From a virus: a stretch of 39,153 nt of DNA. Shown piece after piece: positions 2,615 to 39,153 of the stretch. The notes under the pieces were generated by a model, which was given only the letters and a program-made list of their open reading frames with translations, made no database searches and had not been told where the DNA came from. A program made the position numbers and the translations under genes. Every line of letters begins with the position of its first letter. Position 1 is the first letter of the stretch. Location: positions 1 through 39,153 of IMG/VR virus record IMGVR_UViG_3300035698_007125; one strand, 5' to 3'.

Positions 2615-2648
2615 CTTTTACAATTTTCACTTTAGGATGAAACACAAC

Positions 2649-3800
2649 ATGATGCACCTTCCCACACTCTACAAACAACGTACAGACGGAACACTCCAAC
2701 ACTGGACGATTGAAGTAGACGAAGATAGTCACCGAACCGTTTCGGGCAAAGAAGGCGGGAAGAACATTGCGTCTAAATGGACGGTAGCCAAGCCGAAGAA
2801 TGTAGGCAAGGCAAACGAAACATCCCCTGATGTACAAGCCTTGATCGAAGCAAAGGCAAAATGGAAAAAGAAATCAGAAGGTGAATACGGGACGAAAGAA
2901 GAAGCGATGGCTAAAGGTGGTGCGGCTGCTTTCATCAAACCGATGCTCGCTCTACACTATTCTGATAAGAACCGCAAGAAAGAAATCCTTGCGACGTTCG
3001 GACAGGAAATGATTTTCGGACAGCCGAAGCTGGACGGGATGCGGTGTATTGTTTCTAAGGATGGTATGCAATCCCGCAAGGGGAAACCTATTGTTTCGGC
3101 TCCGCATATCTTCAAGGCACTGAAACCATTCTTCAAGAAACATCCACATGTAATCTTTGACGGAGAGTTGTATTCACACGACCTGTCCCAAGACTTCAAC
3201 CGTATTATCGAATTAGCCAAGAAGACAAAGCCGACCGCACAAGACCTGATTGAATCAGAAGAAACTTTGCAGTATTGGGTATACGATCTTGTTCCGGAAG
3301 ACGAAGATTGCCCGGTCAAATTTGTAGGTCGCGACATCTTGCGTACACAATTTGTAGTCGAATTAGATTACAAGATGATCGTCAACACACCGACGTTCCG
3401 GATCGACGGCGAGGCAGACCTTGAAACCAAGTATCAGAAGATTCTTGATGATGACTATGAAGGGATGATGATCCGTCGTGGTGATCTTCCCTACATGCGG
3501 AAGAAGTGCAAAGCCCTTCTGAAGTATAAGCCGTTTGATGACGATGAATATGTCATCCTTGATGTCATCGAAGGAAAAGGAAACGGTTCGGGCAAGGCGG
3601 GAGCCTGTGTCATGCAGAACCGAAACAGCAAGGTAGACACATTCAATGCTAGACCCAAAGGATCATGGGCATTCTTGACACGGTTGTTAGAAGACAAGGA
3701 AAACGTCATCGGCTGTGAAGGTACGGTACGATACAACGGGTTGACTCCGGACGGTGTTCCACGATTCCCCCGCATCATTGAAATCAGGGACTACGAATAG
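2649..3800 (+). CDS. ATP-dependent DNA ligase with N-terminal WGR-like domain
   Basis: Seals nicks in duplex DNA through a ligase-adenylate intermediate, probably in phage replication and repair. I prefer the ATG at 2649 because an AGGA lies 11 bases upstream; an in-frame ATG at 2637 overlaps that site. Counting from 2637 (387 aa), residues 7-90 form a WGR-like domain (LYKQRTDG...QHWTI..., SKWTVAKPKN). Nucleotidyltransferase motif I is KLDG (Lys131 the adenylated lysine), motif IV is EGMMIRR, and motif V is LLKYKP, followed by an OB-fold region. T4 ligase gp30 is longer (487 aa). This is the first long gene after the tRNAs, with tRNA-Cys directly downstream. No missing catalytic motif seen. 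Confidence 0.93.
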   Translation: MMHLPTLYKQRTDGTLQHWTIEVDEDSHRTVSGKEGGKNIASKWTVAKPKNVGKANETSPDVQALIEAKAKWKKKSEGEYGTKEEAMAKGGAAAFIKPMLALHYSDKNRKKEILATFGQEMIFGQPKLDGMRCIVSKDGMQSRKGKPIVSAPHIFKALKPFFKKHPHVIFDGELYSHDLSQDFNRIIELAKKTKPTAQDLIESEETLQYWVYDLVPEDEDCPVKFVGRDILRTQFVVELDYKMIVNTPTFRIDGEADLETKYQKILDDDYEGMMIRRGDLPYMRKKCKALLKYKPFDDDEYVILDVIEGKGNGSGKAGACVMQNRNSKVDTFNARPKGSWAFLTRLLEDKENVIGCEGTVRYNGLTPDGVPRFPRIIEIRDYE

Positions 3801-9679: not shown

Positions 9680-9903
9680 CCTCTGACTCACAATACGTTG
9701 ACATGTCAACCCGATACGAACAAGCGACAAAGGATATCAAATATCTATTGTCATTTGTTCCTGATTGGGCAAAACACGAACCCTGCTATTGCGACGATCC
9801 TACTATGTACGGGACCGGAACATGTGACGGTGATCGGGCAGTAAAAAAAATGGTCGATGAGATTGTGGAACGAAACAAAGAAATAAAATGGATCGAAAAA
9901 TGA
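9676..9903 (+). CDS. Hypothetical protein
   Basis: A 75-residue protein starting in an ATGA overlap. Residues 38-55 contain CYCDDP...GTGTCDGD (three Cys and several Asp, a possible metal site). The rest is charged and helical. Its 3' end overlaps the start of the RNA ligase gene. Function unknown. Confidence 0.55.
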   Translation: MTSDSQYVDMSTRYEQATKDIKYLLSFVPDWAKHEPCYCDDPTMYGTGTCDGDRAVKKMVDEIVERNKEIKWIEK

Positions 9904-11069
9904 TTGACACATATCTACTACAACACATCGAAGGTCAGCATCCAGCACGACGGATGGACTACAATACTCTATACATGGGATTGATGGATCAAGTACGGCT
10001 TGGCAACATCAAGATGGCGACACTCGGTACTCGGGTGCTGTTCAACTATTCCAGAAAGTGTACATACGATCAAGCGTGGAACATCTTCACATTGATTGCT
10101 CGGGGACTAATCCTTGATGTCAAGTACAAAGAAGTTGTAGCGACTCCGTTTCCTAAGTTTTTCAATTGGGAATCAGAAACAGACTACGTTCCTGACACAG
10201 TGTTTACTGTACATGAAAAGATTGACGGTTGCTTAGGTGTCATCTACTTCTATAATGGCAAGTGGCGAATCTCGTCGCGGGGGTCGCTGTCTTCTGACGT
10301 TGCGGCTGTCGGTCAAGAAATGTTAGACAAGACCTCTGCGAGCGAAATGCTTATCGAAGGGCACACATATATCTGCGAAATCGTACACGAAGATTTCCGT
10401 ATCGTTGTTCCTTATGTCCATAACGCATTATATATTCTTGGTTGCTACAGTGACCAAGGGTACGAAACTGAATTCAACAAAGATGTTTTCGAAGTTGCTG
10501 GATTCCGTATGGCAAAATCATTCGGTGATATTACAGACCTTAACAATCTGACACAAATCATCCGGTCATGGGACTATAAAAAAGAAGGGGTTGTCATTAG
10601 ATTCCCGAACGGTCATCGGATGAAAATCAAGTCTACGGATTACATGAACATGCATCGGCTTGTCTCGGACTTCTCACCTTTGCGGGTGTGGAATATCCTG
10701 ATGGACGAAGATACTGAATCTATCATCGACTCACAGGGTAAGTTGCCGGAACCATACAAGTCGCAATTCAATGAATTGGCAAACGGGTTCGAACAGACAT
10801 TTGTACAGAAGTTAGAAAGATTGCGGGAAGTAACATCTGATACTAATCATATGACTAATCAAGAATTGAATATCTGGATGAATGAATATTCAGACCCGTA
10901 TGCGATCAAACGATTTATCTTCCCATTGAGAAATCAGGGAAATAAGTTTATTGACAATGCATACACAGAAGGAACGAAGACACGACGTAACATCTTCAAG
11001 ACTTTCCGACCGGACAACAATGTCATGGACGGTGTGAATCTATTGAACCTAAAAGAAAAGGCTATTTGA
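9888..11069 (+). CDS. rnlA: T4 Rnl1-like RNA ligase
   Basis: ATP-dependent RNA strand ligase of the T4 Rnl1 family. In T4 it repairs tRNA anticodon loops cut by host PrrC. From ATG 9888 it is 393 aa (T4: 374). An in-frame ATG at 9900, in an ATGA overlap, is an equally good start. ARGLILDV...VATPFPKFFNW (71-93) and KIDGCLG (Lys111, the AMP-accepting lysine) are the family hallmarks. RISSRGSL, then EGVVIRF (motif IV) and MKIKS (motif V), follow. The C-terminal 130 residues are the Rnl1-specific helical domain. With so many phage tRNAs nearby, a tRNA-repair role is plausible. I see no polynucleotide kinase gene in the window. Confidence 0.9.
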   Translation: MDRKMIDTYLLQHIEGQHPARRMDYNTLYMGLMDQVRLGNIKMATLGTRVLFNYSRKCTYDQAWNIFTLIARGLILDVKYKEVVATPFPKFFNWESETDYVPDTVFTVHEKIDGCLGVIYFYNGKWRISSRGSLSSDVAAVGQEMLDKTSASEMLIEGHTYICEIVHEDFRIVVPYVHNALYILGCYSDQGYETEFNKDVFEVAGFRMAKSFGDITDLNNLTQIIRSWDYKKEGVVIRFPNGHRMKIKSTDYMNMHRLVSDFSPLRVWNILMDEDTESIIDSQGKLPEPYKSQFNELANGFEQTFVQKLERLREVTSDTNHMTNQELNIWMNEYSDPYAIKRFIFPLRNQGNKFIDNAYTEGTKTRRNIFKTFRPDNNVMDGVNLLNLKEKAI

Positions 11070-19046: not shown

Positions 19047-20222
19047 ATGAACATCTTGGTACTCGCAACAGATTCTCCCTCTAATCCTCTTGGCGGTCTT
19101 GCCGTAAGACTACTGAACCTTATGGAAGGAATGCCCGAACACAACTTTCTCGTTGTGGGGATGCAATACAACTCAAAAAAACTGCGGTCAGGAAAAAACT
19201 GGGAGTTTGTACGATTTTCCAATCTCAATGGATGTGCTACGGACACCGATCCGATCAAGTACTGGCTACTATCACAACTTGATATCGCGATGTGTACTAT
19301 CGAAGCTGTCCGGTCGCGGGGATTCAAAGTAGACATTGTGCAGGCAACAGATGGGTTTGTGTTTCGTGCGGGGCAACACCTGTCCCGCCACTACAAGGCT
19401 CCCTTTATTGCCGAGATGCAGTTGAGCCTTCCAGCAATACACTCAAAAAAACGAATCACCTGTTCCAAAGATATGAAGGAAGCATCATGGATGAACATAC
19501 AGAAAGTATACGAACATCGTGGGCTAATGTTTTCCGATGCAGCCATCCATGTATCTGAGGCATACTCCAAATACTTCGCAACGAACAACCACACAGAAGT
19601 TATCGCGAATGGTGTAGACACAGAAGCGTGGAACAAATATACAGAAATCCCACCATACAAACTCCCCGGTGGTCCGGACCACCTAAAGATTCTATACATA
19701 GGGCGATGGTCGCCTATGAAAAATATGAACGCTCTGCTTGAGGCAGACTTGCCATCCAATGTCGATCTGTTGTTGGTAGGTGAATCATATATCCCTAAGT
19801 GCGATAGAAAAAATAACAACAATGTATATGTGATGGGAAAGATTTGGGATTCACAAGAGAAGATTGACTTGATGCATTCTGTCGATGCGGTAATCATCCC
19901 TTCGACCCATGAGCCATTCGGTATTGTTGGTCTAGAAGCAATGATATCAAAATGTCCTGTCTTGACTTCGGGGGTTGATGGGTTGGCTGAATGTATCCCG
20001 GCAGATGTCGGTATCAACTGCGGCACATCTCCGGAATCAATCAGCGATGCGGTTCAATCACTAATGGATATGCCTGCGAGAGAAGTGCATAGACGGATTG
20101 ACAAAGGATATGATTTTGTAATGAACAATCATGATTGGCAGAAACATATCATTCCAAAATTCCTAAGTTTGTATGAACGGATGGCGACCCTAACAAATCC
20201 CGTATGTCTCAAACCTATGTAA
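19047..20222 (+). CDS. GT-B fold glycosyltransferase (family 4 type)
   Basis: A 391-residue, two-Rossmann-domain sugar transferase. The N-terminal domain has NPLGGLAVRLLNLMEGM and VDIVQATDGFVFRAG. The linker has VIANGVDTEAWNKY. The C-terminal nucleotide-sugar domain has KILYIGRWSPMKNMNALL and EPFGIVGLEAM (E-x7-E, the donor-binding acidic pair). Phage enzymes of this type modify DNA bases, virion surface or host glycans; which one is not shown here. The start codon is preceded only by a weak site. Followed by the long noncoding region. Confidence 0.85.
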   Translation: MNILVLATDSPSNPLGGLAVRLLNLMEGMPEHNFLVVGMQYNSKKLRSGKNWEFVRFSNLNGCATDTDPIKYWLLSQLDIAMCTIEAVRSRGFKVDIVQATDGFVFRAGQHLSRHYKAPFIAEMQLSLPAIHSKKRITCSKDMKEASWMNIQKVYEHRGLMFSDAAIHVSEAYSKYFATNNHTEVIANGVDTEAWNKYTEIPPYKLPGGPDHLKILYIGRWSPMKNMNALLEADLPSNVDLLLVGESYIPKCDRKNNNNVYVMGKIWDSQEKIDLMHSVDAVIIPSTHEPFGIVGLEAMISKCPVLTSGVDGLAECIPADVGINCGTSPESISDAVQSLMDMPAREVHRRIDKGYDFVMNNHDWQKHIIPKFLSLYERMATLTNPVCLKPM

Positions 20223-22874: not shown

Positions 22875-23363
22875 ATGAAATTTATTACTTGGACACTGTT
22901 ACTCTGTATGTTTATGTTTTTCTCTGTGAAGACCGCGACCGGATCGGTGAATCTGTGGCTGTTGTCTGAAGCTGTGCCTGTTGTTTCGGTAGAGTATTCA
23001 GATACAAATGTGTGGGTAAACACATCTCTGGTCGCAGATCATTACGGCGACGGGATGTTTACCGTATGGACCCACGAAGATGTTCCATACGCTCCATTCA
23101 ATATCCGACTCAATGAAGACGATGCATACACATATCATATTGCGAACCCTGATATGGTTCTTAGTGATGTACAAAAATTTGAAGCGTATGTTATTCAGGG
23201 ACTTGATGGGCTAACATATCTCGACTTCACGGCTCGGAATGATGACATTACTTTGCAGGGCGTGGTTCGCGGAGAAGCTGTACCAAGCATTCCCGAACCG
23301 TCTACCCTATTGTTGTTCGGCATTGGAACATTCTGTCTACTCTCGGGAAGGAAAGTTGACTGA
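22875..23363 (+). CDS. Secreted PEP-CTERM sorting-signal protein
   Basis: A 162-residue exported protein. The N-terminus MKFITWTLLLCMFMFFSV is a Sec signal peptide, with likely cleavage near A21-T-G. The mature part (about 110 residues) is beta-rich and acidic, with no enzyme motif seen. The C-terminus is a textbook PEP-CTERM signal: IPEPSTLLLFGIGTFCLL then S-G-R-K. That signal has the PEP motif, a hydrophobic helix and a basic end, and is processed by exosortase in EPS-making Gram-negative bacteria. A phage-encoded copy implies a host with exosortase and a protein displayed or released at the infected cell surface. It could have been captured from a host. Coupled to the next gene by one base. 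Confidence 0.8.
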   Translation: MKFITWTLLLCMFMFFSVKTATGSVNLWLLSEAVPVVSVEYSDTNVWVNTSLVADHYGDGMFTVWTHEDVPYAPFNIRLNEDDAYTYHIANPDMVLSDVQKFEAYVIQGLDGLTYLDFTARNDDITLQGVVRGEAVPSIPEPSTLLLFGIGTFCLLSGRKVD

Positions 23364-28550: not shown

Positions 28551-28558
28551 TATTTATA
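28551..28558 (-). promoter_or_regulatory. T4-type late promoter for the baseplate operon
   Basis: The forward strand reads TATTTATA, so the minus strand is TATAAATA, the exact late consensus. Transcription should start near 28545 and leave a 40-nt leader before the gp48-like gene. It lies only 15 bases from the start of the divergent gp4-like gene. Confidence 0.7.
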
Positions 28559-28572
28559 CGGATGTTCCGCAG

Positions 28573-29019
28573 ATGGCACACAGAGGCAGATATAAAGTAA
28601 AGAACATCAAAAAGTACATTGGTGATCCTCGCAAGGTTATTTATCGATCTTCTTGGGAGCTTCAGGCGTTGAACGCTCTGGACCGTAACCCGGCTGTGTT
28701 GAAATTCGCATCGGAAGAATGCGTAATACCCTATATATCCCCTGTGGATGGTCGCGGGCATCGATACTTTGTAGACCTGTACGCCAAGGTGAGAACAAAA
28801 GACAGAGACATCAAACACTTTTTGATTGAGATAAAGCCGTATAAGCAGACGCTCCCACCGGTCCCACCAAAAAAGAGAAAGTCTCAACGGTATCTCAAAG
28901 AAGTAAAGACGTATGCCGTAAACGAAGCGAAGTGGAAGGCGGCGACACAATATTGTACAAAGCGTGGATGGGAGTTTCTCATCTGGCATGAGAAAAATAT
29001 ACGATTCATAAATGGATAA
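28573..29019 (+). CDS. Head completion protein gp4-like (nuclease fold)
   Basis: A 148-residue protein (T4 gp4: 150). RGRYKVKNIKKYIGD, YRSSWELQALNALDRNP, EECVIPYISPVDG, RYFVDLYAKV, then FLIEIKPYKQT, EVKTYAVNEAKWKAA and FLIWHEKNI are the T4 gp4 signature. They fit a TnsA/PD-(D/E)XK-like core (Glu-Asp-E-x-K: Asp in VDLYAKV, E-I-K). gp4 is needed to finish heads before tail joining. The order here is divergent from the baseplate genes, although in T4 genes 2-4-53-5 lie together. Confidence 0.92.
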   Translation: MAHRGRYKVKNIKKYIGDPRKVIYRSSWELQALNALDRNPAVLKFASEECVIPYISPVDGRGHRYFVDLYAKVRTKDRDIKHFLIEIKPYKQTLPPVPPKKRKSQRYLKEVKTYAVNEAKWKAATQYCTKRGWEFLIWHEKNIRFING

Positions 29020-29027
29020 GGAAAAGC

Positions 29028-29498
29028 ATGAAGCTAAAACTATCAGAAGAATTCCTTGACACGGTGAAAGCCGGTGGTCAACTCATCGATGTATACAAGA
29101 ACCCTACTGCCAAAGAGTATGCGGATTCTCTGTGGACCGATGACGCATGGAAGGCTGATCCCCTGAAGATTCAATCTCGGGGCGTAGTCGATAAGGGTGG
29201 ATTGGGCAACGTCTATATATGGAACACAGGGATGACACATGATGACGGGATGCGGATCGGGCTCAAGGGCGTCCGGTTGTCCGGTGACATTCTGCCGATC
29301 TATATTGTTTCAGGGAACAAGGTCGGTTTTTCTCACTGGTCCCTGAACAATAACTATCGGTTCGCCGGTTCTGAAATGACCGCGACGGAAATGAAAAAAC
29401 AAATCAAAGACTTTTGGGCAAAGAACGTGAAGGGCAATAAGAAGATTACGAGATTCGCTCCCAACTTCAAGGTGCTTGCCAAGGATATTACAATATGA
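29028..29498 (+). CDS. Array paralog 1, putative internal head protein
   Basis: A 156-residue protein with AAGGAAAA upstream. The leader MKLKLSEEFLD has the L-S-E site form. Core motifs: IDVYKNPTAKE (20-30), SRGVVDKGG (50-58), GNVYIWN with His71. The second Gly-Asp pair is Gly-Asn here, so the conserved Asp is replaced. C-terminal motif: KNVKGNKKITRF. It starts the repeated gene family right after the gp4-like gene and overlaps the next by ATGA. Function unknown. Confidence 0.7.
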   Translation: MKLKLSEEFLDTVKAGGQLIDVYKNPTAKEYADSLWTDDAWKADPLKIQSRGVVDKGGLGNVYIWNTGMTHDDGMRIGLKGVRLSGDILPIYIVSGNKVGFSHWSLNNNYRFAGSEMTATEMKKQIKDFWAKNVKGNKKITRFAPNFKVLAKDITI

Positions 29499-29998
29499 TA
29501 GAAACGTTCAAGCAACATCTAGCCGAAAAATATCTCGACATCGTTTCATTCAAAGACGGGAATAGAGATATGGTAGCTGAAGGAAACTATACAGTATACA
29601 AAAATCCTTCTCCGTCAGAGCTAACAAGCCTTGTATCGGAAAGCGAAGGGGCGTGGAGTGGTATCCGCGGATTGGTAAGTAATAACGGAGCCGGTGACGT
29701 TCTCGTTTTCTCTGGTGAGTTTTTTCATAATTCCGCGATCCGTATTCTAAAGAAACACTTCTCAGGCATATCGAAAAATAAACGGGTCATCGGAATCATA
29801 TGGGACTTCAAACATCTAAATCGATTCTATGTAGCCGAAGATACCACCGGCTCCCACTTCCCCGGCATGGACTATGATACGTTTATGGCGTTACACGCCG
29901 ATGATGTGAGAAAAAATATGGCAAACAATCCCCGCCTGAAAACCATCATGCGAAAATGTGGCATCAATGACTACACTCAAATAAGGTACGGATCATAA
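29495..29998 (+). CDS. Array paralog 2, putative internal head protein
   Basis: A 167-residue protein. The leader MIETFKQHLAEKYLD has L-A-E, with the K-Y/W following it as in the others. TVYKNPSPSEL (33-43), IRGLVSNNGAGDVLVF (57-72), His78; C-terminal motif ANNPRLKTIM. It shares extra features with the 38623 protein (EGxYTVxxNPxxSEL, a late F-P-G loop), so those two look like closer relatives. The start lies in an ATGA overlap. Confidence 0.72.
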   Translation: MIETFKQHLAEKYLDIVSFKDGNRDMVAEGNYTVYKNPSPSELTSLVSESEGAWSGIRGLVSNNGAGDVLVFSGEFFHNSAIRILKKHFSGISKNKRVIGIIWDFKHLNRFYVAEDTTGSHFPGMDYDTFMALHADDVRKNMANNPRLKTIMRKCGINDYTQIRYGS

Positions 29999-30669
29999 TG
30001 GCGAAACGAATCAGAGTATCACAGCTTGAAGTAAAAGCACAGATGGAAGCACTAGAAGGTGCAGCCCGAAAGAATCGCTATGACCAGATAGTGACACGGT
30101 TCAATCAGACCGGGCTGGAAAAACAAACTAAAGCCTCACAGCAATGGTTCCTCGCTAATCTACGAAAACTAAAAGGGCTTGACCCCAACTCTCTGTTACG
30201 GAACAAACGCCTACAGGTTGGGAACAGACTTCCATCGAACGATACCCGCCTGATCGGCAACATGTTTATGTATGCCTACGATGCTAAGACAAAGAAGACG
30301 CTTCCCTATTGGGATAAGTTTCCGCTTGTCATGCCGCTTGAAAAATATAAGGATGGAATTCTCGGGATGAACTTCCACTACCTTCCCCCGCGAGTGCGAG
30401 CCCAACTGCTGAATAGATTGCTCGGACGGATCACAGACAATAACTTTGATGAACGGACCCGGTTGATGATTTCGTATGGCATCCTCAACGAAACAAAACG
30501 GTACTCATTCTTCAAGCCGACAGTGAAGCGATATCTGAACAGCCAGATACGATCAAACATAATAAAGATTCCATCTGACGAATGGGAGATGGCTATATTC
30601 TTGCCGACAGAAAAGTTTGTTGGTGCGTCCAAGCTCAAGGTGTGGGCAGATTCAAGAAAGAAGTGGTGA
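29998..30669 (+). CDS. Conserved T4-like head-region protein, possibly gp2-like
   Basis: A 223-residue protein that is not a member of the array family. Residues 95-150 (YWDKFPLVMPLEKYKDG, LGMNFHYLPPRVRAQLL) and 170-215 (YSFFKPTVKRYL, RSNIIKIPSDEW, AIFLPTEKFVGAS) form a pattern I recall from proteins named DNA end protector (gp2) in T4-like marine phages. T4 gene 2 lies next to gene 4, and here only two genes separate this from gp4, which supports the idea. The N-terminus is basic. I am not certain of the name. Confidence 0.5.
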   Translation: MAKRIRVSQLEVKAQMEALEGAARKNRYDQIVTRFNQTGLEKQTKASQQWFLANLRKLKGLDPNSLLRNKRLQVGNRLPSNDTRLIGNMFMYAYDAKTKKTLPYWDKFPLVMPLEKYKDGILGMNFHYLPPRVRAQLLNRLLGRITDNNFDERTRLMISYGILNETKRYSFFKPTVKRYLNSQIRSNIIKIPSDEWEMAIFLPTEKFVGASKLKVWADSRKKW

Positions 30670-30672
30670 TAG

Positions 30673-31128
30673 ATGTTACATTCATTCAGCCAATACATCA
30701 AAGAAAAGTATATAAACTCTATCGTCGGGCGGCACGCGACGGACAGAAAGACCCTTATCGATATATACAAAAATCCAGACCACAAAGAATTCAGGGAGAT
30801 AATGCAAAGCCTGAAGGGCAACCACAAATCTATCCGGCTGCTCATTGAAAAAGAAGGTGGTGGCGATGTGTGGGCGTTCAACGCGGAGTTGCTTCACAAC
30901 GAAGTCATCCGTCATATGAAGATCGATGAAAAAGGATTGAACGTAGTCCATGCCGAATACAAACCCAAACACAAAGTAGTCGCGGCAGACGAACTGTACT
31001 ATACTCATTCATCTATGTTCTCTATCATCAGAGCTATTGAAAAGAATGCCAAGCTGAAGAAGTTTCTCCCGGCAGGATTCAAGGCACATTCGTATGATGA
31101 AATGTACGACTTGGGGATAAGCGAATGA
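30673..31128 (+). CDS. Array paralog 3, putative internal head protein
   Basis: A 151-residue protein. The leader MLHSFSQYIKEKYIN matches the array consensus (S-F-x-x-Y-I-x-E-K). IDIYKNPDHKEF (29-40), IRLLIEKEGGGDVWAFN (54-70), ELLH (His75). C-terminal motif: EKNAKLKKFLP. Predicted prohead-protease cut after Glu11. Overlaps the next gene by ATGA. Confidence 0.72.
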   Translation: MLHSFSQYIKEKYINSIVGRHATDRKTLIDIYKNPDHKEFREIMQSLKGNHKSIRLLIEKEGGGDVWAFNAELLHNEVIRHMKIDEKGLNVVHAEYKPKHKVVAADELYYTHSSMFSIIRAIEKNAKLKKFLPAGFKAHSYDEMYDLGISE

Positions 31129-31589
31129 CACAACACCTAAACGAAAAATGGATTGCGACGGTAAAGAATGCGTACAATAAAAACAAGCCGGTCAACGTCT
31201 ATCTAAATCCGAGCCGCAAAGAATATCTTGACGCAATAGCAGAGTTGGACGATGAGACATCACGGACATATCAGTTTCTCAGAGCTATTGTTACCAAGGG
31301 TGGGATGGGTGATATCTATATCTTCGATTCAGAAATGCTTCATCAACTGGCGTGGAATCAGCTTGGGCGGGTATCAGGAAAAGGCGCGTTGGTTCCGTTG
31401 ACGCTGGAACGGGGAAGAACGTTTTCTATATCCGGTATGTCTATGCAGGGAATGAATGGTGCAAATGCTCCGGACATGCCAAAAGATATGGGGAAGTTTT
31501 ATAAATATTTGAGTACCTTTATTGTCAAGAACCTAAAAGCGAACAAGAAACTACAGAGCCTAACGGCTTGGGGATTCAAAGAAGCATGA
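31125..31589 (+). CDS. Array paralog 4, putative internal head protein
   Basis: A 154-residue protein with a shortened leader, MTQHLNEKWIATV (L-N-E then K-W). NVYLNPSRKEY (24-34), AIVTKGGMGDIYIFDSEMLH (54-73); a Met/Gly-rich segment follows. C-terminal motif KANKKLQSL. A late-type TATAAATA occurs at 31500 inside the gene, probably by chance. The next gene starts 4 bases before its end. Confidence 0.7.
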   Translation: MTQHLNEKWIATVKNAYNKNKPVNVYLNPSRKEYLDAIAELDDETSRTYQFLRAIVTKGGMGDIYIFDSEMLHQLAWNQLGRVSGKGALVPLTLERGRTFSISGMSMQGMNGANAPDMPKDMGKFYKYLSTFIVKNLKANKKLQSLTAWGFKEA

Positions 31590-32080
31590 ACCAACTACTC
31601 CCCGAAGAATGGCATGGAGCGATACGCGGAAAGACTTCGCATGTCTTCAAGAATCCCGGTCCATCTGAAGTCGCGAAAGCGATGGAAGAAAACTACAAGA
31701 ATGCTCCGGATGTCCGGATGATGGTAGACAGGGGCGGGCTCGGGGATTTGTATCTGTGGAACTCAAACGAATCACACACAGATTTTATGAACAAATTCAA
31801 GAAAGACCTGAAGGGTCAGGCAGTGCCGCTGTATTACTACTACCGGACAGCAAACAAAAAGGTGACATGGAGTTTCGATGTCATCGATGAAGCGTTCATA
31901 GATGAATACAACAGCGACGATACCAAAGACCCAAAGAAGTACAAGAAGGATGACTTCCATGCTCTCGGCAAATGGATCATGGAAAACTATGCCAAGAAGT
32001 TTTGGGCAAAGAACCTAAAGAAGAACGTGAACATGAAACGGATTCAGGCAGACAAGCACATCATATGGGACATGTACTAA
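31586..32080 (+). CDS. Array paralog 5, putative internal head protein
   Basis: A 164-residue protein. I chose ATG 31586 in the ATGA overlap rather than an upstream in-frame start at 31568. The leader is weak (MNQLLPEEWHGA, L-P-E). SHVFKNPGPSE (18-28), VRMMVDRGGLGDLYLWNS with His64. It has a lysine-rich, Tyr-rich middle (VPLYYYYRTANKKVTWSF). The C-terminal motif is FWAKNLKKNVNMKR, as in paralogs at 29028 and 37308. Confidence 0.68.
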   Translation: MNQLLPEEWHGAIRGKTSHVFKNPGPSEVAKAMEENYKNAPDVRMMVDRGGLGDLYLWNSNESHTDFMNKFKKDLKGQAVPLYYYYRTANKKVTWSFDVIDEAFIDEYNSDDTKDPKKYKKDDFHALGKWIMENYAKKFWAKNLKKNVNMKRIQADKHIIWDMY

Positions 32081-32621
32081 ATGATACAATCATTCCGCAA
32101 CTATATCATATCTGAAAAGCTCGGTGCAAAGTATTCGTATTCTTCTACTCAGCTTGAATTCCCGGTTCCTATTGCGAAAAAAGGTGATGGCTCTCTCCGC
32201 GCAAATCTCGGACGATGATCTGGCTGACCACGGGCGGGAAGACGATATTCATATCACCGTCAAGTACGGGCTCACACAAAAAGTATCTTTCGATGATGTC
32301 AAAAATGCTGCGGCGGGCTCCGGTCCTATCGATGCTGTATTGGATGATGTGTCTCTGTTTACCCACGAAGACTTTGACGTTGTGAAAATTGGCATAAAGG
32401 ATTGCCCGAAACTTCATGCTCTGAACAAGGCTATATCCAAACTCCCAAACGAAGACAAGTTTCCTGTGTACAAGCCGCATTGTACTATCGCCTACGTCAA
32501 GGCAGGGTCAGGAAAGAAGTATGTACAATCGCTAAACAGTCTTTCCGGAACGAAACTCACATTTTCTTCTCTGACATTTTCACACTACGATGACTCTACA
32601 CGAAAGTCTGTATCCCTATGA
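32081..32621 (+). CDS. 2H phosphoesterase with CTS-like leader; frame broken by one base
   Basis: The start at 32081 abuts the previous stop, and the end overlaps the next gene by ATGA, so this is one gene. The first frame (45 codons, to 32218) encodes MIQSFRNYIISEKLGAKYS, then YSSTQLEFPVPIAKK, the array-type leader plus the start of a 2H protein. A +1 shift at the AAAAAA run (32178-32183, as if one A were extra) gives VMALSAQISDDDLAD, then DDIHITVKYGL and KPHCTIAYVKAG. These contain the two H-x-T motifs of 2H phosphoesterases. Known members include T4 Acb1, which cleaves CBASS signals. The catalytic motifs are intact; activity and delivery are inference. Confidence 0.65.
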
Positions 32622-33568
32622 AAATCCTAAACGAAAAATGGGAAACGTCGAAGACGATGCGTTGGGCTCGCGGGGTAGAATGGACTTTCGATGTCTGGAA
32701 GAATCCAAACAAGAAAGAACTGGACGAAGCCTATGTACAACGGAATCCTGATCGGTCTGTACACTTCTACGCACCGCCGACGAAATCACGGACATGTCGC
32801 GGATTGATATCTAAAGGTGGACGCGGCGATCTATATGTATTCTCAGATGATGCCCTACACAACGACGGGAAACGGGCGTTGGGCTTTGGATACGAATCGA
32901 ACCCGAAGAATTCCGTAGTGCCTATACATTGCTCTCCAAGGGGCGTAGGGCTCGCCTACAGGACGATAGTAGACTTAGACGGCATGGACATGGATTCCCC
33001 GCTGGTGGTCGGCTGGAGCGATGCTGTGGCGTCTAATAAGAACGTAAAGCGGTTGTGGAACAACACCGATCTAAAAGAAGACGCTCTGCATGAACGGATC
33101 GATTCATTCAAGTCGTACATCAGGGAAAAGTGGCTTGCGTCTAAAAAGCTCCCGGCGATGGGGACAAGCCCGGAGTTGATTCTAAACATCTTCAAGAATC
33201 CAACAGAGAAAGAAATCTTCGAAGCATCCGAAGACGGCGATGCCGGGATGGCACAAAACAAAATCAATATTCGTGGATATGTAGACAAGGCAGGAAAAGG
33301 TGATGTCTATATCTTTGGTTCTATGGATGCGATCCACAAAGACGGGCTCGCGATAATCAAACGGACGCTCAAGGGTGTCGGTGTTCCTATCCTGATGAAC
33401 GATTCACGGATGATCGGCATATCGACCGATCCTCAGAGTCAAACACACACAAAAAATGATAATGAAATCTACCGGCTCGCAAACGATGAATGGGAAGGTA
33501 ATATCAAAGCGAACAAAACAATACAAAGAATGACGAAAACCAAGTCTGTTAGGGTATTTTTAGTGTAA
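32618..33568 (+). CDS. Array paralog 6, two fused domains with an internal leader
   Basis: A 316-residue protein. Domain 1: leader MKILNEKWE, FDVWKNPNKKEL (24-35), CRGLISKGGRGDLYVFSDDALH (60-81), ASNKNVKRLW (138-147). Then IDSFKSYIREKW at 161-172, which is an array leader in the middle of the chain. Domain 2: LNIFKNPTEKE (189-199), IRGYVDKAGKGDVYIF (218-233), His240, KANKTIQRM. A cut after Glu170 would release two mature proteins. It looks like a fusion of two neighbouring array genes. It ends before an early-promoter island. Confidence 0.72.
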   Translation: MKILNEKWETSKTMRWARGVEWTFDVWKNPNKKELDEAYVQRNPDRSVHFYAPPTKSRTCRGLISKGGRGDLYVFSDDALHNDGKRALGFGYESNPKNSVVPIHCSPRGVGLAYRTIVDLDGMDMDSPLVVGWSDAVASNKNVKRLWNNTDLKEDALHERIDSFKSYIREKWLASKKLPAMGTSPELILNIFKNPTEKEIFEASEDGDAGMAQNKINIRGYVDKAGKGDVYIFGSMDAIHKDGLAIIKRTLKGVGVPILMNDSRMIGISTDPQSQTHTKNDNEIYRLANDEWEGNIKANKTIQRMTKTKSVRVFLV

Positions 33569-33628
33569 ATCACATCTCCTGTCTGCACAGGCACTTATAA
33601 AAATCTTCGAAATTCCTTCCAAAACCCC

Positions 33629-33656
33629 TTGACAAGCCCTGTATATGTGGTATAAT
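33629..33656 (+). promoter_or_regulatory. Sigma70-like promoter
   Basis: TTGACA (33629-33634), 16-bp spacer, TATAAT (33651-33656), preceded by GTGG. The start would be about 33663, which is the ATG of the next gene. Confidence 0.75.
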
Positions 33657-33662
33657 ATATGC

Positions 33663-33845
33663 ATGACTGAAACGAAAGCCCGATTATATAAGACAGCGTT
33701 TGATCCTGAAAAAGATTGCTATGTCGGTATCAGCCTTAAAGCAGTAGGCAACGGTCCCGGTGGACACGAATTTTGGATATACGATTCAGGCAGAAATCTG
33801 ATCGGTGAGCGTTGGGAATGTCAACTCTGCGATTTTCTACTATGA
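33663..33845 (+). CDS. Hypothetical protein, 60 residues
   Basis: A small protein starting at ATG 33663, 6 bases past the -10 box. An ATG at 33645 is in frame but lies within the promoter spacer. Sequence features: YVGISLKAVGNGPGGHEFWIYDSGRN and CQLC at 54-57, a single Cys pair near the end. It is the first gene of the early-type island inside the late array and overlaps the next gene by ATGA. Function unknown. Confidence 0.55.
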   Translation: MTETKARLYKTAFDPEKDCYVGISLKAVGNGPGGHEFWIYDSGRNLIGERWECQLCDFLL

Positions 33846-34171
33846 AAAATATTACACTCCACGAACTGCGACAAGACGCCGAATCCGTATTGGGCGGGAA
33901 GTATACCGGGATGATTTTTCTCGGTCCTACCTATGGCGTACTTGGCGACACCTATTATCGCTCGGACGGAAATTATGTAATCATGTTCGAACGGATTCCA
34001 GATAAACGGGCGTTCCGTCCGTCTGTACTCCCGCCCTATAGAGAAATGCCGAACGATCTGGATGTATTGGAATTGTGTGAAATATTCGGTGGTGATATAG
34101 ACAATCAGATATTCGTCATCTTGAACGAAAGAAATGAAGAATATTCGGCTCCGACCGAAAATTACTCTTGA
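33842..34171 (+). CDS. Hypothetical protein
   Basis: A 109-residue protein starting in an ATGA overlap. Residues 8-45 (ELRQDAESVLGGKYTGMIFLGPTYGVLGD) and 85-100 (GDIDNQIFVILNERN) suggest an alpha/beta fold; the middle is Pro-rich (PSVLPPYREMPND). The promoter at 34168 overlaps its stop codon. No family recognised. Confidence 0.55.
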   Translation: MKNITLHELRQDAESVLGGKYTGMIFLGPTYGVLGDTYYRSDGNYVIMFERIPDKRAFRPSVLPPYREMPNDLDVLELCEIFGGDIDNQIFVILNERNEEYSAPTENYS

Positions 34172-34195
34172 CATACGCTCCATACATGGTATAAT
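34168..34195 (+). promoter_or_regulatory. Sigma70-like promoter
   Basis: TTGACA (34168-34173), 16-bp spacer, TATAAT (34190-34195), preceded by CATGG. The downstream sequence (CTTGTGAGTCAGGGACGGA) is nearly the same as that after the promoter at 20560. Confidence 0.8.
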
Positions 34196-34205
34196 ATACT
34201 TGTGA

Positions 34206-34241
34206 GTCAGGGACGGAAGCGTTTCGATCCCTGACCTTTTT
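34206..34241 (+). promoter_or_regulatory. 5' leader hairpin with T-run, possible attenuator
   Basis: GTCAGGGA (34206-34213) pairs perfectly with TCCCTGAC (34228-34235), followed by C-TTTTT. It begins a few bases after the predicted transcript start and ends before the gene at 34280. It is the clearer partner of the hairpin at 6117. Confidence 0.7.
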
Positions 34242-34279
34242 AGACGATGAACCCGCAAAACTTGAAAGGTTTTAGCAAA

Positions 34280-34621
34280 ATGAAGGTATTATTCAACGAA
34301 CGAACTAGCGGTACGAAGAATGTCAAGACCGTCCGAACGCCGGTCGCTGTTGTCGATGGTGATGAGAAGGTAGCCAAGGCTATCGCTGCTGGTTATAACA
34401 AGTCGGGCTTTTATAAGCTCGGGAATGTCGTGGTCGGTGAGTTGCCGATCTACGCCAGCGTTGAGGATTTTGAGTCGGTGTTGAAAGACAAGACGAAGGA
34501 CGCTGACGCCAAGGTGCGTATGGCTGCGGGCAAGAAGATTGCCAAGCTGACCGATGCCCAAATGAAGGCGGTCGCTGAAAGTCTCGGCGTCGATGTCTCC
34601 AAGCTGAAGAATCTCGGCTAA
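34280..34621 (+). CDS. Small protein of an early-type transcription unit
   Basis: A 113-residue protein. I prefer ATG 34280 (GAAAGG 11 bases upstream) over ATG 34247, which has no ribosome site. It is highly soluble, Lys/Ala/Val rich, with a strand region at the start (KVLFNERTS...VRTPVAVVDGD) and a C-terminal helical part LTDAQMKAVAESLGVDVSKLK that resembles a small SAP/LEM-like helix-turn-helix. Its promoter, leader hairpin and strong terminator make it a self-contained unit. It is probably expressed early and in quantity. Function unknown. Confidence 0.65.
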   Translation: MKVLFNERTSGTKNVKTVRTPVAVVDGDEKVAKAIAAGYNKSGFYKLGNVVVGELPIYASVEDFESVLKDKTKDADAKVRMAAGKKIAKLTDAQMKAVAESLGVDVSKLKNLG

Positions 34622-34662
34622 AATTGATCTTAGTAAGATGTTGCCACGGCGACTTCCAAACG

Positions 34663-34698
34663 AACCCCTGATGGAACCCCTTCCATCAGGGGTTTTTT
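34663..34698 (+). terminator. Strong intrinsic terminator
   Basis: AACCCCTGATGGAA (34663-34676) and TTCCATCAGGGGTT (34681-34694) form a perfect 14-bp stem with CCCC loop, followed by TTTT. It ends the unit that begins at the promoter 34168. Confidence 0.92.
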
Positions 34699-34703
34699 AT
34701 ATG

Positions 34704-34711
34704 TCTAAATA
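34704..34711 (+). promoter_or_regulatory. Variant late promoter (TCTAAATA)
   Basis: TCTAAATA lies 13 bases from ATG 34717, the same distance as TATAAATA from ATG 18028. It comes just after a strong terminator, so the array that restarts here needs a new promoter. Confidence 0.5.
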
Positions 34712-34716
34712 TAGGT

Positions 34717-35241
34717 ATGGAATCATTCAAGGAACATATGCTCGGTGAAGTGTTTGTGGACTTTGCCAAAGGCGGATACGGGTCAACCCCGATGTCGATC
34801 TTCAAGAACCCGCGATCTTCTGAAGTAGAAGACGCCGCGAACGAAGGCAAGTACCGTGAACTGCGGGGATTCGTGGACCGGGACGGGAAGGGCGATGTCT
34901 ATCTGTGGAACGGCGACATAGAACATATGGAAGCCTACCGAAAACTTTCCGGAAAACTAAAGGGAGACTATGCGGTCCCGGTCTGGTTCTGGATCAAGAC
35001 GAAAAATGATGTAGAGATTTCTAAGTTTTCGATGGCACAGATATACGGGGTCGAAGACCCCGATCAATATTACGATGACGATTGGGGCGATGACGATGAT
35101 GATGACGCCGCACGTTTTCGCGATGACATGGCAGAGGCGAAAGCGATCTATGACATGATGGAAAAGAATCTAAAACGAAACGCAAAAGTAAAAGTAGTTT
35201 TCAAGGGCAAGACCCCCAAAGTATATTCAGGTGGCGTATAA
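34717..35241 (+). CDS. Array paralog 7, putative internal head protein
   Basis: A 174-residue protein. Leader MESFKEHMLGEVFVD (L-G-E). MSIFKNPRSSE (26-36), LRGFVDRDGKGDVYLWNGDIEH (49-70). It has an Asp-rich loop near residue 120 (DDDWGDDDDDDAA) not seen in the others. C-terminal motif MEKNLKRNAKVKVVF. First array gene after the terminator and late promoter. Confidence 0.72.
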   Translation: MESFKEHMLGEVFVDFAKGGYGSTPMSIFKNPRSSEVEDAANEGKYRELRGFVDRDGKGDVYLWNGDIEHMEAYRKLSGKLKGDYAVPVWFWIKTKNDVEISKFSMAQIYGVEDPDQYYDDDWGDDDDDDAARFRDDMAEAKAIYDMMEKNLKRNAKVKVVFKGKTPKVYSGGV

Positions 35242-36084
35242 ATGATAAAATCATTCAACCGCTATATCAAAGAGAAGTGGGTCGATGTCGAACAACGGAC
35301 ATCTGACGGGATGGAGTATATGATGAACATCTATAAGAACCCGTCGCTGAAAGAAGTCCTGTCTCTACCAAAAGAAACAGAGAAGTTTTTCAGTGCCGAT
35401 ACGAACCGGACAATCCGTGGGCTGATAGCGAACGGGGGTAAAGGCGATCTGTTTGTTTTCTCACAAGACCTTCTACACGCCGAAGCGATCAATATTCTCG
35501 GAAGCCGATTGACGATGCCCGCACTCAAGATCATCATCCGTACCGCGAAACTTCCTAAGCTGTTGGTAGTGAAAGCCACGAACAGCTACGGGCAGCCTAC
35601 TAAATTCTCAAAGACGCACACACCGATTGTACAGAAAAACAAGAATCTACAGAACCTTGTTGCTGGTGGTGGGATTCTATTCGTAGAAGAATGGTACAAA
35701 GATGTTGACAAATTCGATGTGCTTTCGCCTATACACAAGAACCCTTCCCGCAAAGAGTATCCGGAGATTGCGAAACTAAACAAGACTTCGATACGGTTCT
35801 GGATCACCGGTTCTGGTGCGGGTGATGTCTATGCATTCCCCGGTCATCTGCTACACGCATACGCCGAGCCCGCTATCAAAGAAGTCAAGTACAACAACAA
35901 AGAACACATCCGGTGCGAGTTTTTTCACTCCGACAAAACACTCATATGGTATACCGATTCGCATGCTCTGGACGCATCGAAGCCCCACCGCGATAAGGTA
36001 GACGGCAATCTGGCAAAGAATAAATACCTTCAACGATTCCTTCCCAACGGCAAATACACTCCAATGAACGGGCAGACTGTATGA
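35242..36084 (+). CDS. Array paralog 8, two fused domains
   Basis: A 280-residue protein, starting right after the previous stop. Leader MIKSFNRYIKEKWVDV (I-K-E). Domain 1: MNIYKNPSLKE (28-38), IRGLIANGGKGDLFVF (58-73), LLH, QKNKNLQNLV (131-140). Domain 2: a reduced leader FVEEWYKD (147-154), HKNPSRKEY (165-173), IRFWITGSGAGDVYAFP (184-200), LLH (His205), AKNKYLQRFLP. Domain 2's start keeps only the E-x-W part of the leader. Confidence 0.72.
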   Translation: MIKSFNRYIKEKWVDVEQRTSDGMEYMMNIYKNPSLKEVLSLPKETEKFFSADTNRTIRGLIANGGKGDLFVFSQDLLHAEAINILGSRLTMPALKIIIRTAKLPKLLVVKATNSYGQPTKFSKTHTPIVQKNKNLQNLVAGGGILFVEEWYKDVDKFDVLSPIHKNPSRKEYPEIAKLNKTSIRFWITGSGAGDVYAFPGHLLHAYAEPAIKEVKYNNKEHIRCEFFHSDKTLIWYTDSHALDASKPHRDKVDGNLAKNKYLQRFLPNGKYTPMNGQTV

Positions 36085-36509
36085 AATCATACAAGCAATA
36101 TATAAACGAGAAATGGGTGAATGACGCCACAGGGTTTCACGGGCATGGAGCGAAAAAAGCGACCATCCCGATCTTTATGAACCCGACAAAGGTTGAATTT
36201 TCTGAGATGATAAAACAGCAAGCCGAATCTCAGGGATTCAAGGAACTGCGTATGCTGGTCCCTAACTCATACTCTAATAAGTCTTCTGATGTGTACGGAT
36301 TCAGCTACAGACTTTTCCATGATGTTGTCATCAAGAAAGAAAATCTCAAGTACGGCGATTGGATACACGCGAAGTTTGCATACCGGACCCCAAACAAACT
36401 ATTCATCAATGTGGCGGATTCGGAAATGGACTTCCTTGTTCCGGTGTTGCGGAAAAATAAAAACCTTGCACGGATCATGGAAATCAAAACCATGACAATC
36501 TGGAACTGA
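36081..36509 (+). CDS. Array paralog 9, putative internal head protein
   Basis: A 142-residue protein. Leader MKSYKQYINEKWVND, the nearest in form to the T4 internal-protein leader (M-K-T-Y-Q-E-F-I-A-E). IPIFMNPTKVEF (29-40), LRMLVPNS...SSDVYGF...LFH (56-80). The Gly residues of the central motif are lost, but Asp-x-Tyr and His remain. C-terminal motif RKNKNLARIM. ATGA overlap upstream. Confidence 0.72.
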   Translation: MKSYKQYINEKWVNDATGFHGHGAKKATIPIFMNPTKVEFSEMIKQQAESQGFKELRMLVPNSYSNKSSDVYGFSYRLFHDVVIKKENLKYGDWIHAKFAYRTPNKLFINVADSEMDFLVPVLRKNKNLARIMEIKTMTIWN

Positions 36510-36510
36510 T

Positions 36511-37311
36511 ATGATAAAAAAGACTTTCGAACAACTCGTACAGGAAAAATGGATTGCGACCGCCATCGACTATTCGAAGCGGTCCCACGACATATTCAAG
36601 AACCCGTCGAAGAAAGAACTGAACGGAGTACTCGCAAAGAGCAAGGCGAGATTTTCGAACATCGGTTCTGTCCGTGGTCTTCTCACAGGGAAGAACGGAA
36701 ACGGCGATCTGTATGTGTTCGATATTTCCTGCCTGCATGCATTCGCACAGAGAGAACTCGGCATAGAGAATACATCGATGCGGATCACAATGAATCCGAC
36801 ACAGAAAAAAATCTTCGTGGTCGATCTGATAATGAACCCGAAAGCCGAAGTCGATCCGGTGGTTGCCGCGATCAACAAGAACAAAAATGTCCTTGCGGTA
36901 ATGGGCGTCCCGAAAGAAATCATATCCGAAAAATTTCTCAAATATGGAATCTCTCCCTACACCTATAACAAGATGCCGATCTTCGAAAACCCGTCCAAGC
37001 GGGAATACGACGAACTGTTTCAGGGGCTCGCCCAAAGAAGCTACAAACAAATCCGATTCATATGTACAGGTGACGGGAAGGGAGCTATCTATGTTTTCCC
37101 TGCCGAGCTTCTACACGATGACGCACACCGCACAATCGGTTCGGCGGTCCTTTCTCCGAGCCCGGTCTACGGGATGATACGGACAGGTAAAAAAATCCAG
37201 TGGTTCTATTCAGAGGGAGAAGCGGATAGCGAAGACATCACGGTGAACCTAGAGAAGAACAAAAACATACGGAACTTTTTGGGAAGCTCCTATAAGGTAG
37301 ACGAAACATGA
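36511..37311 (+). CDS. Array paralog 10, two fused domains
   Basis: A 266-residue protein. Leader MIKKTFEQLVQEKWIATA (V-Q-E). Domain 1: HDIFKNPSKKEL (26-37), VRGLLTGKNGNGDLYVF (54-70), CLH, NKNKNVLAVM (122-131). Domain 2 opens EIISEKFLKYG (136-146), then MPIFENPSKREY (155-166), IRFICTGDGKGAIYVFP (181-197), ELLH, EKNKNIRNFLG. In domain 2 the conserved Asp is Ala. The only gap from the previous gene is one base. Confidence 0.72.
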   Translation: MIKKTFEQLVQEKWIATAIDYSKRSHDIFKNPSKKELNGVLAKSKARFSNIGSVRGLLTGKNGNGDLYVFDISCLHAFAQRELGIENTSMRITMNPTQKKIFVVDLIMNPKAEVDPVVAAINKNKNVLAVMGVPKEIISEKFLKYGISPYTYNKMPIFENPSKREYDELFQGLAQRSYKQIRFICTGDGKGAIYVFPAELLHDDAHRTIGSAVLSPSPVYGMIRTGKKIQWFYSEGEADSEDITVNLEKNKNIRNFLGSSYKVDET

Positions 37312-38225
37312 ATACACTTAGGGAAGACCTATTCAAGAGAGCGAAGTCGATCCATGGATCGAGCATCGAAGTATACAAAAATCCGAACCATTCGGAGATG
37401 ATGTACATGACAAACAACATGAACATGAGTGCGGTGTGGGCGATTGTAGACCGTGGCGGCATGGGTGATGTTTATGTGTGGGCGGCTGGTCAGGGCGTAC
37501 ATCCGGACGGGCATAGGGCTATAAAGTCTGCGGCAAAGGGCGATCTGGTTCCGCTGTATGCCGAAGCCCATGGCGGGCAGTTGAACACTTCGTTTTCTTT
37601 CGATATGCTTTCAGGTGTACCGGCGGGCGTAAACTTCAACGACTACTTCATAGAAAAAGCAGAAAGATTCTGGATAAAGAACCTAAAGAAAAACAAGAAC
37701 ATGAAGGTTTCCGGGCTCTCTAAAAATCTGCACCATGCAATCTACGGAATGAAGTGGGAGTATAAACCCAAAAAGAAGAAAAAAGCCCTACAAGAAAAGT
37801 ATCATGACACGGTGAAGAACCCGGTCTATAAGGATGCCGCAGAAATATACAAAAATCCATCTCCGGCTGAATGGGATATTCTCGTTGACAGCTATTCCGA
37901 ATGTCGCGGGATTATAACAAAAAAGGGAAAGGGCGATTTATACATCTTCCCTGCCCGGCTCCTGCATCAATACGCCTATGATCTTTCTGTGCGAAAATCT
38001 TCCAATAGAGAAATCGTCCCGGTGACGATCAAAGACAAATGGCTCTATTCTATAAGCCTTTCTACAATGAATACTATATGGAACGAAACAGACCGGCTGG
38101 AATATGAAAATCTTGTAGAGCTATTCAATGATGATCTTGTTCCGAGCATAGAGAAAAATCGAAACGTACTGAAACTCGCAGGCGGAAAAGCGGTGCGTTG
38201 CAAAAAATGGGGGGTACGAACATAA
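37308..38225 (+). CDS. Array paralog 11, two fused domains
   Basis: A 305-residue protein. Domain 1 lacks a typical leader (MNTLREDLFKRAK, with L-R-E) and has IEVYKNPNHSE (20-30), VDRGGMGDVYVWAA and a late FWIKNLKKNKNMK. A Lys-rich linker (KPKKKKKALQEKYHDT, 153-168) holds L-Q-E-K-Y, a leader remnant. Domain 2: AEIYKNPSPAEW (178-189), CRGIITKKGKGDLYIFPARLLH (199-220), EKNRNVLKLAG. Domain 1 is closest to the 31586 and 29028 proteins by its tail. Confidence 0.7.
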   Translation: MNTLREDLFKRAKSIHGSSIEVYKNPNHSEMMYMTNNMNMSAVWAIVDRGGMGDVYVWAAGQGVHPDGHRAIKSAAKGDLVPLYAEAHGGQLNTSFSFDMLSGVPAGVNFNDYFIEKAERFWIKNLKKNKNMKVSGLSKNLHHAIYGMKWEYKPKKKKKALQEKYHDTVKNPVYKDAAEIYKNPSPAEWDILVDSYSECRGIITKKGKGDLYIFPARLLHQYAYDLSVRKSSNREIVPVTIKDKWLYSISLSTMNTIWNETDRLEYENLVELFNDDLVPSIEKNRNVLKLAGGKAVRCKKWGVRT

Positions 38226-38227
38226 TA

Positions 38228-38626
38228 ATGCTGAATTCATTCAAACAATACATCAGAGAGAAATGGATCAAAGACATCGGAGCAGCCCCGGTCTTTATCA
38301 ATCCGACCCGGAAAGAATATACAGAACTTCTCAAGCTGGAATCCTATTCTATGCGAATGTGGATACGCAAGAATGGATCGGGCGATGTGATAGTGTTCCC
38401 CGGTGATGTGCTTCATAACGCGGTGGTAAAGTTTGCCGGATTGAATATACGCTACAACTCGACCGACCTTCGTGCGGAATATTTTGTAGACGATCATTCT
38501 ATTAACTTCTATGCGGATAATAAATTCCGGGACGGAAGCGATAGGGTCTTTGTAGAAGACATAGAGAACAACAAGAACCTGAAGCGTTTCCTGCCGAAAC
38601 CAAATTGGGAAGTAGACCTAGTATGA
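38228..38626 (+). CDS. Array paralog 12, putative internal head protein
   Basis: A 132-residue protein. ATG 38228 is chosen because the leader MLNSFKQYIREKWIKD begins there; the frame is open further upstream. APVFINPTRKEY (20-31), MRMWIRKNGSGDVIVFPGDVLH (42-63). C-terminal motif ENNKNLKRFLP. The shortest complete copy in the array, so it may show the minimal domain. Overlaps the next gene by ATGA. Confidence 0.72.
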   Translation: MLNSFKQYIREKWIKDIGAAPVFINPTRKEYTELLKLESYSMRMWIRKNGSGDVIVFPGDVLHNAVVKFAGLNIRYNSTDLRAEYFVDDHSINFYADNKFRDGSDRVFVEDIENNKNLKRFLPKPNWEVDLV

Positions 38627-39135
38627 TGAAAAGCTTCAAGACATACATCAGAGAAAAATACGCTACTACCATAGTGTTCAAGGGGCAGGGCGAACGAAAC
38701 GAAACAGACCGGCACAGGGAAGAAGGCGAATATACGGTTTTCATCAATCCGAACAAATCCGAACTGCTTCAGGCTCTTAAAGAAGTCCCCGGTTCTGCAT
38801 GGGCGGGATTGAGAACGTCCGTCCGATGCCTCATAGAAAAAGAAGGAAAGGGCGATGTCTATATCTTCCCCGGCAATGTCGTACACTGGTCGGGTGGAAA
38901 TAAGCTGGAAAAATCATTGGGGATAACGTTGAAAAAAGCGGTCCCGGTGACGATTGAGATGGTGAAAAAAACATGGCGAATATCAACCGACTATGAGCAT
39001 TCGTTTTTCCCCGGAATTCCCGCGCGCGTTTTCGCAAAGAAGATCGAACTATATAAACAAAACATCATCGACAATCCTAAAGCGTCATCCATTCTTCCGC
39101 ACAAGGATATAGAGCGTGTGGACATAGGAGCATAA
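38623..39135 (+). CDS. Array paralog 13, putative internal head protein
   Basis: A 170-residue protein, starting at ATG 38623 in an ATGA overlap (ATG 38626 directly follows). Leader M-MKSFKTYIREKYATT (I-R-E). YTVFINPNKSEL (38-49), VRCLIEKEGKGDVYIFPGNVVH (67-88), PVTIEMVKKTW. C-terminal motif IDNPKASSILP. Related to the 29495 protein. Another array gene begins one base after its stop. Confidence 0.72.
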   Translation: MMKSFKTYIREKYATTIVFKGQGERNETDRHREEGEYTVFINPNKSELLQALKEVPGSAWAGLRTSVRCLIEKEGKGDVYIFPGNVVHWSGGNKLEKSLGITLKKAVPVTIEMVKKTWRISTDYEHSFFPGIPARVFAKKIELYKQNIIDNPKASSILPHKDIERVDIGA

Positions 39136-39136
39136 A

Positions 39137-39153
39137 ATGAAATCATTCAAACA
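39137..39153 (+). CDS. Start of a further array gene, cut by the window edge
   Basis: ATG AAA TCA TTC AAA CA encodes M-K-S-F-K, the array leader, so the family continues past the window. Confidence 0.6.

Follow-up and report, generated by a model that had tools for sequence, protein, structure and literature searches.

Why would a phage carry at least 14 genes for one and the same small domain in a single late locus? The question is raised by the virus record IMGVR_UViG_3300035698_007125 of IMG/VR, which was analysed as a whole (39,153 bases; hereafter the window), and in which an array of such genes extends from position 29028 to the end of the record. We consider it likely that the products of the array are internal head proteins of an uncultured T4-like phage, which would be packaged in the capsid, trimmed by the prohead protease and injected with the DNA, and which probably are variants directed at the host or its defences. 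The expansion of one fold is a variation on the internal-protein strategy known from T4, and the domain family is new.

The array and its domain

The array comprises 13 complete genes, followed by a fourteenth of which only the start, at 39137, is included, and contains 17 copies of the domain, since four of the genes (g8, g10, g12 and g13) carry two. An earlier reading of the window from its letters alone, referred to below as the original prediction, had correctly recognized the paralogous array, its 17 copies and the gene at the window edge, but had counted 12 complete genes instead of 13. When g14 was used as the sole query, 12 further places in the window were returned, with E-values ranging from 1.5e-21 to 8e-5. 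Most adjacent genes abut or share a 4-base overlap, and the pairwise identity of the copies is low (15-34%, median 24%), both as predicted. The motif order NP...R...GxGD-Y-F/W...H is common to the copies: all 17 have N, P, E, H and a C-terminal N, while R and two G are conserved at ≥90%. Every gene and motif named in the prediction, the leader included, was found. The mature domains measure ~14-19 kDa.

Searches with the Pfam 2025 and PHROGs v4 profiles returned no significant match above the curated cut-off for any array copy, and the array proteins matched neither an ART nor any other known enzyme domain; nor did a known family with another function emerge. Judged by these profiles, the array domain is a previously undescribed family. 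The models predicted for g5 (pLDDT 83.6, pTM 0.82) and g14 (pLDDT 78.7, pTM 0.74) are confident and share one α/β fold, and so give no sign of the unrelated folds that would have told against the original prediction. Ulp1- and gelsolin-like fold matches, with TM-scores of at most 0.41, were rejected. The top structural match in the viral library was RL2RES_104 of a Rhizobium phage (A0A6B9J1Y5; E = 9.2e-4, probability 1.00), an uncharacterised protein of 121 residues that has RGxF...IHIFDSYxxTH at the same places as the array domain. It is, however, encoded by a single gene away from late genes and lacks both the NP motif and the leader, and since its TM-score is below 0.5 the link is only a distant one.

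The leader and the genomic setting

A typical array protein starts with MKSYKQYINE↓KW, the arrow marking the putative cleavage site. T4 IPIII begins MKTYQEFIAE. Its first 10 residues suffice for packaging, residues 4 and 7 of the leader target the protein while residues 8 and 10 govern processing, and the T4 prohead protease cuts after L/I-x-E (review of T4 head assembly, PMC9026906). The g11 leader has Y4, Y7, I8 and E10. Directly before the domain, [LIV]-x-E is present in 17/17 copies, second domains included, and takes the form L/I-x-E in 15. A strict leader pattern, aromatic-xx-aromatic/H/L-[ILVM]-x-E, was found at 7 of the 13 array gene starts compared with 0 of the window's 192 remaining ATG starts. 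Placed side by side with the T4 capsid-targeting sequence, the array leaders match it in position, spacing and cleavage motif, as expected for T4-type capsid-targeted internal proteins. The complete internal leader of g8 would be expected if two genes had fused and the site were still cut.

The leader is also found outside the array family. The original prediction had a 2H phosphoesterase gene interrupting the array; the gene does lie within it, but carries an array-type leader in another frame and is thus no simple interruption. From the ATG at 32081 the frame reads MIQSFRNYIISEK and then the conserved 2H-family N-terminus, while the 2H frame itself covers 32124-32621. The frame shifts near 32186, at a run of A, owing to a genuine frameshift or to an error in the assembly; the 2H homologues in huge phages run across this point. 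Both HxT/S motifs of the 2H family are present (HITV and HCTI), and the protein matches PF13563 above the cut-off (E = 1.7e-9) and the Acb1 family PF23474 below it (E = 1.7e-5). The gene resembles the anti-CBASS 2H/Acb1 proteins of phages in its HxT motifs, here combined with the array leader, but differs from them in its frameshift and its Acb1 score below the Pfam cut-off; it does not encode the array domain. Two huge-phage 2H homologues have similar leaders, MIKKYLEFMKES in LR756502 (L140) and MKLKKYKQFIKES in LR745206 (L141), and the array domain is absent from five huge phages that carry 2H homologues. By these comparisons the leader is portable. Head-packaged 2H proteins have already been predicted (PMC9503650). 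By eye, the 2H protein of LR745206 is fused to a 3'-5' exonuclease-like domain.

With a T4 gp4-like gene before the array and a gp2-like gene within it, the phage is T4-like and the array lies in its late head/tail region, and so has the location of accessory genes near late virion genes that is expected for capsid-targeted internal proteins. The gp2-like gene at 29998 had been described as conserved and unrelated to the array, which holds; its identity as the DNA-end protector had been overlooked, as had the head-packaging look of the leader and its presence on the 2H gene. Baseplate and tail genes (gp48-, gp53-, gp27- and gp5-like) are located on the minus strand beside gp4. In phage phiM12, gp48, gp4, gp2, gp19.2 and gp26 are contiguous and array-type genes are absent, which indicates that the array is an insertion among late head/tail genes. 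Upstream of the array genes there is no enrichment of T4 late-promoter sequences. The T4 late-promoter consensus TATAAATA occurs at 28558 of the window on the minus strand, where the gp48-like gene follows after some 50 bases.

A second array was found in another uncultured phage, IMGVR_UViG_3300035698_005654, with at least 11 copies followed by a gp26 homologue (E = 8.6e-35); a tail-tube gp19 match adjoining it was looked for and not found. When 27 copies were placed in one tree, those of the two viruses were intermixed (8 changes, with a shuffled mean of 8.3), at least three changes are forced by supported branches, and the pair g8b-V9b has a support of 96/86. Much of the duplication therefore predates the split of the two viruses, in keeping with the old and diversifying family that had been predicted. 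None of 33 contigs with a related gp4 contains an array, and a search for related loci with the array alignment or g14 as query returned nothing.

Relatives in other phages and the role of the array

The pattern YxWDAxxATH was run against other viral contigs and picked out four real open reading frames (ORFs), all with V-x-x-NP upstream and an Arg in between. An hhalign comparison of the array profile with this NP-R-H domain of other phages (alignment A3) gave an E-value of 3.5e-12. Because ten residues had been selected by the pattern itself, these were masked, and the E-value was then 3.4e-8; the best score in 60 column shuffles was 15, compared with 66 for the real alignment and 46 for the masked one. 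On this profile evidence the array domain is homologous to the NP-R-H domain. Tblastn searches of 50,697 named phage records, with the 17 array copies and with those from huge phages as queries, yielded no real relative. Conservation of N, R and H across such distant relatives suggests a binding or catalytic site.

In one of the ORFs the NP-R-H domain forms the C-terminus of a protein with an ART-PolyVal domain (E = 3.6e-18), and another ORF has a DNA-ejection protein (phrog_4287) and also a lysozyme encoded in its vicinity. A 607-kb phage, IMGVR_UViG_3300046665_000548, has six NP-R-H copies, one of them weak. The five copies not picked by the pattern, aligned together, match the array profile with an E-value of 4.6e-13; they include a second ART fusion, and the array profile detects two copies in this phage directly. 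Several NP-R-H, ART and GNAT genes in one cluster of this phage (L123:10686-17137) have the leader MNMRD(L/I)xxLxE in common, a pattern with 10 forward and 0 reverse matches across the genome. The cluster has the look of an injected-effector set whose targeting signal is a different one; a gp21-type protease gene is present in this phage. From the ART fusions, the ejection-protein neighbour and the shared leaders it follows that the domain accompanies injected-effector enzymes in unrelated phages. A search of 399 genomes of one bacterial phylum returned one borderline match. Matches to another motif pattern, which had three rather than four residues before LH, are due to chance, 2OG-oxygenases included, and are not informative on absence from bacterial genomes. 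The match to L093 was likewise due to chance.

How the array might work can be outlined as follows. The precursors would be made late, and the short N-terminal leader would take each of them into the prohead core, where a T4-type protease would remove it by cutting after the Glu of [LIV]-x-E. The same protease probably separates the tandem domains of the two-domain precursors. The mature domains would be packed with the DNA and enter the cell with it at the start of infection, where the variants probably act on host proteins by binding or modifying them, with first-response defences as the most likely targets; by analogy, the multiplicity of copies may answer to a defence that itself has many variants. 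For packaging the sequences make a strong case. Cleavage of the leader and injection we infer from the same features, and a counter-defence role with different targets for different copies may be suggested by the T4 precedent. There, Ip1-3 are leader-bearing and injected, each blocks a different GmrSD type IV restriction enzyme, and they have the leader alone in common (PMC12373910); IPIII acts in the cytoplasm (PMC9391042). With Ip1, Ip2 and Ip3 the array proteins share the leader residue spacing and the L/I-x-E site, a small size and mostly basic character, and the presence of more than one variant per phage, but the array domain has no sequence-family match.

The array can also be compared with polyvalent proteins and T4 Alt, which are head-packaged ARTs. 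In two phages the related domain is part of an ART-PolyVal fusion, in the 607-kb phage it has its leader in common with ART genes, and the array has a late-gene context. The array genes, however, encode neither an ART nor any other known enzyme domain, nor are their products large and multidomain: each has the one domain once or twice, and not the several unlike domains of a polyvalent protein.

Several observations weigh against packaged and injected proteins of the T4 kind. The T4 internal proteins are mutually unrelated except for the leader, whereas the array repeats one fold 17 times, with tandem fusions. Five of the 13 genes (g1, g5, g6, g8 and g13) have short leaders in which [LIV]-x-E alone is retained, and in g13 the cleavage site is followed by D. 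Sequence and fold searches of the PDB identified no significant solved structural relative. The first strand of the g5 model begins two residues past the conserved Glu, and part of the conservation around this Glu may therefore be structural. Furthermore, the prohead protease gene is unseen in the two array viruses because both records are fragments; PF03420, the gp21-type protease, was detected in phiM12, in RL2RES and in the 607-kb phage, but not in G001.

The short leaders, together with one AlphaFold model that puts the EKW segment in the first strand, are also what would be expected if the leader were merely part of the fold and the proteins were late cytoplasmic ones that are not packaged, acting for example in superinfection exclusion or takeover. 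We regard this as quite unlikely, since the residues before the Glu have low confidence in the g14 and g5 predictions yet are conserved in sequence, the same leader is present on the unrelated 2H enzyme, and both its spacing and its cleavage motif fit the T4 signal. The leader and the late location would equally suit basic core proteins of the head that package or condense DNA, with no specific host target and with copy number as dose. The mature proteins are indeed mostly basic, with a median isoelectric point of 9.3 compared with 7.8 in other ORFs. The mature g9 protein, however, is acidic, the domain is fused to ARTs in other phages, dosage alone leaves the divergence unexplained, and the retention of N, P, R and H out to the 607-kb phage despite a median identity of 24% suggests a site rather than bulk charge; a role in condensation is thus unlikely. 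Tail, neck or baseplate proteins, which the position between head-completion and baseplate genes might bring to mind, are highly improbable given the absence of the genes at the same place in phiM12, their fast divergence and many copies, and their lack of resemblance to structural families.

Injected internal head proteins thus remain the reading we prefer. More tentatively, and as a possibility we would not yet call probable, the head may be loaded with at least 14 diverged versions of one domain, some of them as protease-cut polyproteins, each neutralising a different variant of a host defence, in effect a multiplexed injectable set. The original prediction, in which the array would supply one tool in many versions for use on varied host targets, is partly supported, by the T4-type leader and by the effector enzymes that accompany the related domains. 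T4 sets three unrelated internal proteins against as many variants of one restriction enzyme. In the window, one fold is spread over at least 14 genes in one late locus. The array offers a concrete and testable set of probably injected proteins, its leader can be used to find further injected cargo in uncultured phages, and the conserved N-R-H site makes the host target worth seeking.

The early unit and other features of the window

The features between 28573 and 39153 are listed in Table 1. The three-gene early island of the original prediction is present. Two perfect sigma-70 promoters (TTGACA-16-TATAAT, at 33629 and 34168) lie in a 32-bp repeat (33628 and 34167), three small ORFs occupy 33645-34621, and a strong hairpin terminator of 15 pairs closes the unit at 34662-34695. 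By these signals, it is an early unit inserted in the late operon.

Table 1. Genes and other elements of the array region; arrows mark putative cleavage sites.
Position	Strand	Feature	Leader or site	Match
28573..29019	+	T4 gp4-like head completion/closure gene, directly before array		phrog_218 head closure, E 6.7e-57
29028..29498	+	g1, one domain	MKLKLSE↓E	
29495..29998	+	g2, one domain	MIETFKQHLAE↓K	
29998..30669	+	T4 gp2-like DNA-end protector, inside array		phrog_429, E 4.5e-52; 1996 phage records by tblastn
30673..31128	+	g4, one domain	MLHSFSQYIKE↓K	
31125..31589	+	g5, one domain	MTQHLNE↓K	
31586..32080	+	g6, one domain (31586 is the chosen start)	MNQLLPE↓E	
32081..32621	+	2H phosphoesterase gene (Acb1/LigT-like)	MIQSFRNYIISE↓K, array type, in frame of 32081	
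32618..33568	+	g8, two domains	SFKSYIRE↓K, complete internal leader on second domain	
33629..34695	+	Inserted early unit, outside array family: promoters, three small ORFs, terminator		
34717..35241	+	g9, one domain	MESFKEHMLGE↓V	
35242..36084	+	g10, two domains	MIKSFNRYIKE↓K	
36081..36509	+	g11, one domain	MKSYKQYINE↓K	
36511..37311	+	g12, two domains	MIKKTFEQLVQE↓K	
37308..38225	+	g13, two domains	MNTLRE↓D; internal site LQE↓K	
38228..38626	+	g14, one domain	MLNSFKQYIRE↓K	
38623..39135	+	g15, one domain	MMKSFKTYIRE↓K	
39137..39153	+	14th array gene, start only, cut at record end	MKSFK...	

Elsewhere in the window, one of the 14 phage tRNA genes is for a tRNA-SeC (anticodon tca, 1161-1255); a phage that uses selenocysteine would be unusual. 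By eye, two ligase-like genes were noted, for an ATP-dependent DNA ligase (2637-3800) and an RNA ligase (9888-11069), as well as a glycosyltransferase-like gene at 19047-20222. Also by eye, the gene at 22875-23363 encodes a small, secreted-looking protein with a PEP-CTERM-like tail (SIPEPSTLLLFGIGTFCLLSGRK), which hints at a host with an exosortase.

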